Source of the DNA: Enterobacter sp. RIT418 | GTDB lineage: Bacteria > Pseudomonadota > Gammaproteobacteria > Enterobacterales > Enterobacteriaceae | DNA: 64,000 nt | Assembly: GCF_003057745.1 (NCBI RefSeq) | Contig: NZ_QBJD02000003.1 | Coordinates: 62,001 to 126,000 of the forward strand | Reading direction: 5' to 3' | Shown here: piece after piece, positions 2 through 2,117 of the stretch | Position numbering within the stretch: position 1 is the first letter of the stretch | Layout: each line of letters starts with the position of its first letter | Translations under genes and position numbers: made by a program | The notes under the pieces: model-generated | Seen by the model: the letters and a program-made list of their open reading frames with translations, nothing else | What the model was told of the DNA's origin: nothing | The model's database searches: none

Positions 2-265
2 AACAGCATCGTCGGCGCGGCGGCGTTCGTGAAGGCCAAAGCCGAAATGCCCGCCAACCACCTGATCATCGGCAGCCCGGCGAAGGCGATCCGCACCCTG
101 AGCGAGCAGGAGATCGCCTGGAAGCAGCAGGGCACCCGCGAGTATCAGGTGCTGGTGGAGCGCTGCAAGCTGACGATGCACCAGGTCGAGCCGCTGCGCG
201 AGGAAGAGCCGGGGCGCAAGCGGCTGGTCTTTGATGAGAACTTGCGGCCGAAGTCGGCGGGGTGA
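2..265 (+). CDS. paaY: PaaY-type hexapeptide-repeat protein, C-terminal part
   Basis: This is the 3' end of a gene that starts before the window; the open frame runs from base 2 without an in-window start. The visible 87 residues open with the last turn of a left-handed beta helix ([12 protein letters not shown]) followed by the '[15 protein letters not shown]' segment typical of gamma-carbonic-anhydrase-like hexapeptide proteins, then a charged C-terminal helix. The length and sequence of that tail match PaaY, the thioesterase-like accessory protein of phenylacetate degradation. In K-12 paaY is also not far upstream of azoR and hrpA, which supports the call. The assignment rests on the C-terminus only. 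Confidence 0.75.
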
Positions 266-423: not shown

Positions 424-873
424 ATGAAAATCTCTCGAAGTGTCGGCGTCATGCTTATTGCTGGAGCACAGTTAGGGATGTGCTTTTCGGTTCAGGCTGG
501 GCTTTTTAGCAAACCCATCGATCTTTCAAAGCCCTTTGTTTGTAAAGACATCTCTCCAACACCGATGAGAATCACTGAAAAAGGGCTCATCATAGGAGGC
601 ATAGTTTATCCGTTGTACAACCCTAACGCAGCATCCACCCCAACGATGACAAATTCGATTTTCCGTAGTAAGGACAACCTGGAAGAGATTGACATTGTAC
701 AATATGCGAGCGATGGCGAAATTAGCGTGAGTTACATGAAATTTTATAGCGATCCCGACCAATTCATGGATGAAGCATTAATCGAAAAAAATAAAATATT
801 CGAGAAGGCCAGTTTCGCCGTGGACAACCCCAATCCTTATTTCCATTCCAAAAACCAGGGTTGTCATCAGTAG
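424..873 (+). CDS. Putative secreted protein, 149 aa, unknown function
   Basis: I do not recognise this protein. It has a clear Sec signal peptide (basic MKISR, hydrophobic stretch, cleavage near SVQA-GLF, residue about 27), so the mature chain of about 122 residues is probably periplasmic. The mature part has two cysteines (CKDI near the start, GCHQ at the very end) that could form one disulfide. No lipobox is seen. Codon use and the region in front of it are AT-rich compared with paaY and yaiL, which suggests acquired DNA. It lies just upstream of the phospholipase-D-type gene on the same strand, so the two may be co-transcribed. Confidence 0.6.
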   Translation: MKISRSVGVMLIAGAQLGMCFSVQAGLFSKPIDLSKPFVCKDISPTPMRITEKGLIIGGIVYPLYNPNAASTPTMTNSIFRSKDNLEEIDIVQYASDGEISVSYMKFYSDPDQFMDEALIEKNKIFEKASFAVDNPNPYFHSKNQGCHQ

Positions 874-926
874 CATTTCTCATCAAGGCCGTATTGAGCT
901 GCACAACTTTGCTAAAAAGGAAGCCA

Positions 927-2117
927 GTGAAAATTATCACATCTCCATTCGAAATTGATCTCGCTCTCGTAAAACTCATGCGTAAATACGCAAAATATCA
1001 TATTGCGACAGCGTGGGCTTCGATGGGCTCAAAAGCGTCATTTGCTCTGCTGAAAAATAAACACAAAATAGTCAAAATGATCGTCGGGACGCATTTTTAC
1101 CAAACGCATCCTAATTTCATCGATGCCTTTTCAAGTGGTTGTAATGTAAGATTTATACTGAAGACCGATGGCGTTTTTCATCCAAAGCTGTATCTTTTCT
1201 CGAACGAGAATGGGGAATGGGAATGTCTGGTAGGAAGCGCCAATTTCACTGCGTCCGCGCTGACAAAAAATCATGAAATGATGACCCACTTTAAGAGCAA
1301 CGAGCCCGGAGCAGATACGGCCTTAGCGGATATTTTGCAAGCGATTGATCTCTATTGGTCGGAAGCGAGTAAGATGACTTGCCGGGAAATTTCCAATTAT
1401 AAAAACATATGGAATAAAAACAGGCAAAAGTTAGATGCCTTGAAAGGTGTCTACGGCGAAACCAAAAATAAACGGAGTATATTGAGCTCTGAGATATTCT
1501 CACTCACGTGGGATGAGTACTATAAAAGAATTTCCGATGATGAGTTAAATTCCTTTCAGGGCAGGCTTGATGTACTCGACACGGTTCAGAAGTATTTTAC
1601 GGAGAATTCATCCTTCTCGGCGTTGAGTGACCTGCAGCGTAAACAAGTTGCGGGGGTAATTAATGGCGTAGACATTAACTGGAAATGGTTTGGCAGCATG
1701 GTCGGAGCCGGCTACTTTAAAAATGTGATTAACACTAATAATCCCTATCTTTCTGAAGCGCTGGATCAAATACCCTTAACGGGTATTGTTATCGAGGCTG
1801 ATTATAAAAAGTATGTGAGATTGTTTAGGCTCGCATTCCCCGAGGGCGGGGCAGCCATTGCGACTATGACCAGGATGCTGGCCATGAAGCGTCCAGATTA
1901 TTTTGTTTGTTTAGACAGTCAGAACCGACGCGCATTATGTAATGATTTTTCCATAGCAATGAATGTAACGCCAGAAAACTACTGGCAAAATATTATTTTG
2001 CGCATAACGGATTCAGTCTGGTGGTCTTCACCTTTACCCGACAGTTTTTCCGAAGCACAGGCATGGAAAGGCCGCGCGGCGATGATCGATTCACTATTTT
2101 ATCAGGGCCTGCCGTAA
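927..2117 (+). CDS. Phospholipase-D-type (HKD) putative nuclease with extra C-terminal domain
   Basis: The 396-residue product has an N-terminal phospholipase-D-like domain (about residues 1-150) with one HKD-type motif: HPKLYLF (His85, Lys87), then GSANFT about 16 residues later, then KNHEM. The single motif suggests a dimer sharing one active site, as in the Nuc and BfiI-type nucleases. The C-terminal half (about 230-396) holds a conserved-looking stretch with RPDYFV..D..NRRALC and WWSSPLP that I cannot assign. I chose GTG 927 because an AAGGAAG sequence sits 3-10 bases upstream; a longer frame from TTG 861 would overlap the preceding gene and has no such site. DNA is AT-rich. A defence-type nuclease is possible but not shown; no methylase or helicase partner is adjacent. 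Confidence 0.65.
   Translation: MKIITSPFEIDLALVKLMRKYAKYHIATAWASMGSKASFALLKNKHKIVKMIVGTHFYQTHPNFIDAFSSGCNVRFILKTDGVFHPKLYLFSNENGEWECLVGSANFTASALTKNHEMMTHFKSNEPGADTALADILQAIDLYWSEASKMTCREISNYKNIWNKNRQKLDALKGVYGETKNKRSILSSEIFSLTWDEYYKRISDDELNSFQGRLDVLDTVQKYFTENSSFSALSDLQRKQVAGVINGVDINWKWFGSMVGAGYFKNVINTNNPYLSEALDQIPLTGIVIEADYKKYVRLFRLAFPEGGAAIATMTRMLAMKRPDYFVCLDSQNRRALCNDFSIAMNVTPENYWQNIILRITDSVWWSSPLPDSFSEAQAWKGRAAMIDSLFYQGLP

Follow-up and report, generated by a model that had tools for sequence, protein, structure and literature searches.

What does a single gene on a GC-poor island of Enterobacter sp. RIT418 do for its host, when its product joins a phospholipase D (PLD) domain to a C-terminal half for which no Pfam family scores over its cut-off? 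The gene lies near the start of the window, the 64,000-nucleotide stretch of DNA analyzed here (Table 1), where a sequence-only reading had proposed a stand-alone gene for defense or DNA processing, located in acquired DNA.

Table 1 Positions in the window of the features discussed
Feature	Position	Strand	Details
Inserted low-GC segment	266..2228	.	Between paaY and a conserved gene pair; GC content and congener alignment
Passenger ORF (probable)	424..873	+	149 aa, signal-peptide-like N-terminus (by eye)
Shine-Dalgarno-like AAGGAAG (putative)	917..923	+	Precedes the GTG start; from sequence
CDS, predicted PLD nuclease with C-terminal, putatively HhH-GPD-like domain	927..2117	+	396 aa, GTG start; full-length relatives
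PLD nuclease domain (predicted), residues 1-165	927..1421	+	Pfam, AF2 model, structural match to SauUSI
PLD active-site motifs H85xK87 ... G103SxN106 ... N115xE117	1179..1277	+	Conservation in the 67-row alignment
All-helical C-terminal domain (predicted), residues 205-396	1539..2114	+	AF2 model; weakly HhH-GPD glycosylase-like
Candidate helix-hairpin-helix and Asp segment, residues 310-330	1854..1916	+	Consensus G..TA[TS]RLLAMKRPDxFVCLD

The surroundings of the gene bear out its description as acquired DNA. Specifically, the island has a GC content of 42.4%, against 57.4% in the window from 2229 to 64000, and the congener regions compared do not align with it. Six congener regions were compared, and in all four that include the end of paaY (the gene names paaY and yaiL are taken over from the sequence-only reading) the alignment runs to about window position 255-265 and resumes at about 2228-2239, leaving the stretch in the middle unmatched; in the remaining two, alignment starts at 2228. 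Behind paaY, two of the four genomes have a short spacer of about 0.46-0.49 kb and two carry 2.9-3.5 kb of unrelated genes, and this differing content in four congeners marks the spot as a variable site. Inspection of the island's ORFs by eye brought up no mobile gene, as had been reported before, a search of E. coli genomes with the island DNA gave no match, and a scan for promoters and terminators found signals no better than those in shuffled sequence. The PLD reading frame itself is uninterrupted, and a TTG at 861 in the same open frame offers an alternative upstream start.

The island holds a further ORF at 424-873, whose top match in four family libraries has an E-value of 0.25. Among 60 related genomes it is present only in its own, and a plasmid of Enterobacter mori carries a 61% relative in the vicinity of HNH and Fic genes. 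A functional tie to the PLD gene was considered and rejected, as tblastn found no relative of this ORF in loci L002-L112 around relatives of the PLD gene, and it is probably a passenger with no functional link. Seventeen bases at the paaY stop codon (GTGAAAATTACCACATC, 262-278) recur with one change at 927-943, at the start of the PLD gene; the repeat may be a trace of the insertion of a segment with ORF 424-873, or it may have arisen by chance.

The N-terminal half places the protein among the PLD nucleases. Pfam assigns it to PLDc_2 (3e-8) and RE_NgoFVII (1e-7), both over the gathering score, and each chain has one PLD site, the single HKD-type site that the sequence-only reading had recognized, with the residues H85-P-K87, G103-S-A-N106 and N115-x-E117. 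In a family alignment of 67 rows, which draws on 62 of 80 genome loci and four of 14 viral loci, H85, K87, G103, S104, N106 and N115 are invariant and E117 is kept in all rows except one; the window protein lacks the Asp of the textbook HxKx4D motif, and so do SauUSI and R.NgoAVII over the stretches aligned. Against the PDB, the 67-member profile finds SauUSI (6e-16), R.NgoAVII (1e-6) and BfiI (2e-6). The AF2 model of residues 1-165 (pLDDT 94.3, pTM 0.77) superimposes on SauUSI (7clg_A) with Z 17.6 and an rmsd of 2.7 over 154 aligned residues, on BfiI (2c1l) with Z 14.6 and on R.NgoAVII (4rct) with Z 12.2, followed by Nuc, NucT and PLD3 among others. By sequence and by fold, the closest PLD domain is thus that of SauUSI, an ATP-dependent, type IV restriction enzyme. 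SauUSI is a long helicase fusion, with 838 residues in the solved chain, whereas the window protein has 396 residues, no helicase and a different C-terminal domain.

On these grounds, the protein is very probably a DNA-cutting enzyme of the PLD kind. BfiI and Nuc are PLD nucleases that work as dimers, and since each chain of the window protein carries one half-site, a homodimer would be expected by analogy. Identity with DISARM DrmC, PbeA or ZacB was rejected, as the PADLOC matches are confined to residues 54-161 in the PLD part and the DrmC match reaches 18.4 bits against a cut-off of 133. More generally, the known defense families do not account for the protein, their PADLOC and NCBIfam matches being limited to the PLD domain or far under the cut-off; PHROGs returned nothing under E 0.1.

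The C-terminal half is harder to place, and the earlier suggestion that it recalls helix-hairpin-helix glycosylases fares unevenly. Modeled alone from 54 sequences (54 of the 67 alignment rows), residues 205-396 form an all-helical domain that is predicted with confidence (pLDDT 94.1, pTM 0.91). Upon VIA realignment of 99 chains, 12 reach Z>=2, and all 12 are HhH-GPD DNA glycosylases, representing about nine different proteins. OGG2 leads with Z 5.6 (rmsd 5.1 Å, 150 residues aligned), followed by MjOgg (Z 5.1), MagIII (Z 4.2) and the remaining chains at Z 2.3-2.9, EndoIII and MutY being among the glycosylases matched; for a helical domain, these are low values. The predicted succession of helix 290-302, a hairpin, helix 311-321, a loop with D330 and helix 334-341 follows an order that we take to resemble HhH-GPD proteins.

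The register of the candidate motif points in the same direction. Sixteen positions after the alanine of its TA pair, Asp stands in 27/27 EndoIII rows and 22/22 MutY rows that have the motif, rows that were chosen by that motif and include many near copies from one genus; the window protein likewise has Asp here (D330). Across the family this position varies (D in 41 of 67 rows, N in 15, S in 6, T in 3, V in 2), and the position four before the alanine is Gly in 42 of the 67. At two before the alanine, where bifunctional glycosylases such as EndoIII have their Lys, none of the 67 rows has one (A 28, G 22, P 11, S 3, R 2, I 1), a residue that monofunctional HhH-GPD members do not need. R316, L318, K321-D324 and F326 are invariant in all 67 rows, and N333 is invariant in the family alignment. 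With R316, K321-D324 and N333 never changing but the Asp absent from 26 of 67 rows, a base reader is favored over an enzyme that excises bases.

Profile comparisons do not extend this likeness. No Pfam family, housekeeping families included, matches the C-terminal half over its cut-off, and PF00730 is absent from the 19 Pfam families that the 54 members match at E<=5. For DUF6308 (PF19827) the window protein scores 13.5 bits, where 27.3 would be required, and 28 of the 54 C-terminal domains match this family under threshold (best E 0.0016), below the curated cut-off wherever this is shown; its name was not found in the literature searched, and a search for it in 100 genomes gave no match, as did the control queries. 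hhalign of the C-terminal domain gives P 0.67 for EndoIII, 0.35 for AlkA and 0.063 for MutY, all within the range of 31 unrelated controls, and since two of these controls reach P<=0.065 the MutY value is noise on its own; AlkA against MutY gives 7e-8. Foldseek, too, returns nothing significant for the C-terminal model (best E about 4), HhH-GPD glycosylases making up five of the 22 chains listed, and a viral structure library holds no match at E<=0.001.

That the fold is unrelated to HhH-GPD, serving for instance dimerization or partner binding, and that the likeness is coincidental is accordingly a real possibility, which falls somewhat below an even chance and is compatible with each of the functional readings considered here. 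The non-significant Foldseek and hhalign results agree with it, as does the fact that middling Z-scores are common among helical models, whereas a coincidence would have to explain why 12 of 12 chains at Z>=2 come from one superfamily and why the TA...D register is identical to that of EndoIII and MutY. We lean slightly toward a C-terminal domain that is HhH-GPD-like in shape. The glycosylase hint gains independent structural support from the fold ranking, and the G..TA(+16)D register agrees with it; the profile comparison at noise level, the Foldseek result and the variable Asp leave it short of proof, and the fold comparison paired a confident model with a best Z of 5.6. The differences from true HhH-GPD glycosylases, specifically the lack of a significant profile match, the variable Asp, the missing Lys and the fusion to a nuclease, remain considerable.

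Two genomes of the order encode the C-terminal module in proteins with no match to PLD (L002/L109 and L003/L110), so that, judged by sequence, the module is separable from the nuclease. These PLD-less relatives, at L109:6633-7823 and L110:6507-7673, each stand alone between other genes and touch DUF6308 under threshold.

The window gene is one member of a coherent bacterial two-domain family, which is widespread and as yet has no name. A scan of a species-genome collection with one C-terminal pattern yielded 167 relatives, the best 80 of which were kept; 77 of these 80 loci have one open ORF of at least 384 aa, the exceptions being L074 (337 aa, close to where its locus ends) and L082 and L083, which are broken copies. 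With tblastn, 15 plasmid records were found, 14 of them at >=80% cover and 27-33% identity, and viral contigs contributed 14 loci, nine of which match most of the protein's length; phage records gave no match for either the PLD protein or a PLD-less relative. The family spans at least nine phyla (nine phylum groups in a 63-row tree, several rows being metagenome bins), and the tree follows phyla loosely, with ten changes of phylum label where eight would be the minimum. The window protein groups with Photobacterium (61% identity) and Gilliamella, within a set of eight that includes a Desulforhopalus copy. In 11 of 11 close pairs, six of them drawn from four Gilliamella copies, dN/dS is below 1 (0.08-0.57), and together with the invariant motifs in relatives this excludes a chance ORF. 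Within the class, the C-terminal profile matches three of 369 genomes, the own one included, and a full-length copy is confined to the own genome among the 60 of the genus that were searched, the four further matches being limited to the PLD part. One congener carries a different PLD protein of 422 aa (L111:6315-7583), DpdK/DrmC-like under the cut-off, which adjoins genes that by eye resemble an integrative conjugative element.

This distribution bears on the possibility that the protein is a nuclease of DNA repair or processing, which would sense damaged bases via its HhH-GPD-like domain and have no part in defense. The fold likeness does point to repair glycosylases, and some loci have genes for SOS-response-associated peptidases or for LexA-like proteins, the latter read from sequence. 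Repair genes, though, are usually conserved within a genus, and a gene so sparsely distributed, carried on plasmids and viral contigs and present in one of 60 genomes of its genus, departs from that pattern; we give a repair function a small chance.

The neighborhoods of the relatives vary, include defense genes and lack a constant partner (neighbors without a Pfam match are named from sequence and clustering). L089 and L093 share the gene order hsdR-hsdS-ATPase-hsdM-PLD, the PLD gene of L073 overlaps at its start with an hsdS-like gene, and in L101 a gap of 25 bp separates the PLD gene from the end of an hsdR-like gene before it. The corresponding gaps in L085 and L091, behind the gene of a UvrD-type helicase-nuclease, are 38 and 56 bp; the PD-DExK nuclease domain of this protein is shown for L085. 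Downstream of the PLD gene in L023 lie genes for a C5-methylase, Vsr and an FtsK/HerA-like protein, and some plasmid records have McrC-family, restriction-endonuclease and ABC-three-component genes nearby. In the viral contigs L098, L099, L102 and L103, the PLD gene is followed within 0.5-5.4 kb by two shared gene families, one of which presumably resembles a tail-tip protein, and this suggests that the gene is prophage cargo there. Upstream of the PLD gene in L025 are genes for Z1, a GHKL-ATPase and a C5-methylase, an arrangement that recalls the restriction-modification (R-M) neighborhoods with MutL-like ATPases described in PMC2292703, where HKD domains fused to helicases are also noted.

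Operon-like adjacency in L073, L085, L089, L091, L093 and L101 could mean that the protein is an accessory nuclease in need of a partner, which lends cutting power to R-M systems of type I, to AddA-like systems or to others and is elsewhere a displaced component. Yet the partner varies from locus to locus, and the window gene stands alone. All-against-all clustering of the neighbors found no fixed operon partner; besides the PLD family itself, the commonest clusters occur in seven loci only, and many neighbors are ordinary genes. We therefore regard dependence on a partner as quite unlikely. In a comparison of 136 adjacent with 123 distal (>=7 kb) genes, PADLOC and Pfam gave no visible excess of defense among the families listed, both sets holding defense families beside ordinary genes; gene calls were longest ORFs, and plasmid and viral loci were left out. 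Relatives thus sit in shifting contexts that include defense genes, as opposed to one fixed context, and the gene is a loner that visits defense-rich neighborhoods, in keeping with its earlier description as stand-alone.

The question of whether a methyltransferase accompanies the gene bears on a further alternative. BfiI and R.NgoAVII combine an N-terminal PLD nuclease with a C-terminal domain, as the window protein does, and share its Pfam RE_NgoFVII match, so that it might be a sequence-specific, type IIS-like restriction enzyme of this kind, whose C-terminal domain reads unmodified sequence while a methyltransferase encoded elsewhere protects the host. The N-terminal endonuclease class is identical, and methyltransferases do occur near some relatives. 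Specifically, a type I-like methylase lies within 10 kb in five of 50 loci (50 of the 80 loci were used, with a purpose-built HMM seeded from two of these loci), against 0.32 expected from 69 PF02384 rows at E<=1e-30 in 50 genomes (231.1 Mb). Genome coordinates also confirm L043, L089 and L093, in a mapping that assumes contig numbers to follow accession order, and the Poisson tail is 0.004 for three loci and 2e-5 for five, with L089 and L093 related and hence not independent. On other contigs, the own genome encodes an N6-methylase (C42) and C5-methylases (C40 and C43). Against this, PF02384, PF01555 and PF00145 have no match on the window's own contig (C23, 320 kb), and a crude motif scan of 98 loci with their flanks flags a methyltransferase in ten, a count that rises to at least 13 as the scan missed L089, L093 and L023, the last with a C5-methylase by sequence. 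The DNA-reading domains of BfiI and R.NgoAVII, moreover, are B3-like, that of BfiI being beta-rich, in contrast to the all-helical domain predicted here. An enzyme of the BfiI type is thus decidedly improbable.

The lack of methylase matches on the window's contig fits a different mode of action better. A host that carried a sequence-specific type II enzyme but no matching methylase would be put at risk, and a nuclease triggered by modification, damage or another non-self feature is therefore the better fit; modification-dependent, type IV-like action would explain why the gene mostly lacks a nearby protective methyltransferase. The best reading, tentative and a little short of an even chance, is a type IV-like restriction nuclease that stands alone and uses its C-terminal domain to inspect bases. 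According to this model, the horizontally acquired gene would work alone; the N-terminal half would form a metal-independent PLD nuclease with half an active site per chain, completed in a homodimer, and the helical C-terminal half would bind DNA in an HhH-GPD-like shape, inspecting and probably flipping bases, and the enzyme would thereby cut only where a base is modified or damaged or where another non-self feature is present. From context and enzyme class we infer that the most likely role of the gene is to defend cells through cleavage of foreign DNA. A bolder version, in which an HhH-GPD repair-type domain now serves as a base-flipping reader (or still excises where the Asp is kept) and is wired to a PLD nuclease, so that one protein of a new restriction enzyme class cuts modified phage DNA, is unlikely, though by no means negligible.

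The proposed logic has parallels in known systems. PLD-wH and EVE-PLDc fusions are modification-dependent restriction enzymes, partly predicted (PMC11037411, PMC7641849), which likewise unite a PLD nuclease and a modified-base reader in one chain; their reader is a winged helix or an EVE domain, whereas that of the window protein would be HhH-GPD-like. Brig1 and Brig3 are anti-phage DNA glycosylases directed against modified phage DNA, but they are of the uracil-DNA-glycosylase and not the HhH-GPD kind, and the available portions of the two papers mention no PLD nuclease (PMC11078745, PMC13160076). HKD nucleases in BREX offer a further precedent of like logic (PMC12839542). Among the literature matches listed, viewed at the level of titles and abstract openings with subscription papers mostly outside, no fusion of PLD and HhH-GPD domains appeared, which is not proof of novelty.

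PLD nucleases paired with modification readers such as winged helix and EVE domains are already known or predicted. If the proposed reading is true, a glycosylase-type reader would constitute a new class of sensor, and a repair fold would have been recruited for restriction within a single protein of 400 aa, which should be convenient to clone and assay. Four family libraries give no specific name to this family, which crosses at least nine phyla and occurs on plasmids as well as in viral contigs, and a single assay could assign a function to well over a hundred genes that are now annotated as 'phospholipase D family protein' or remain nameless.
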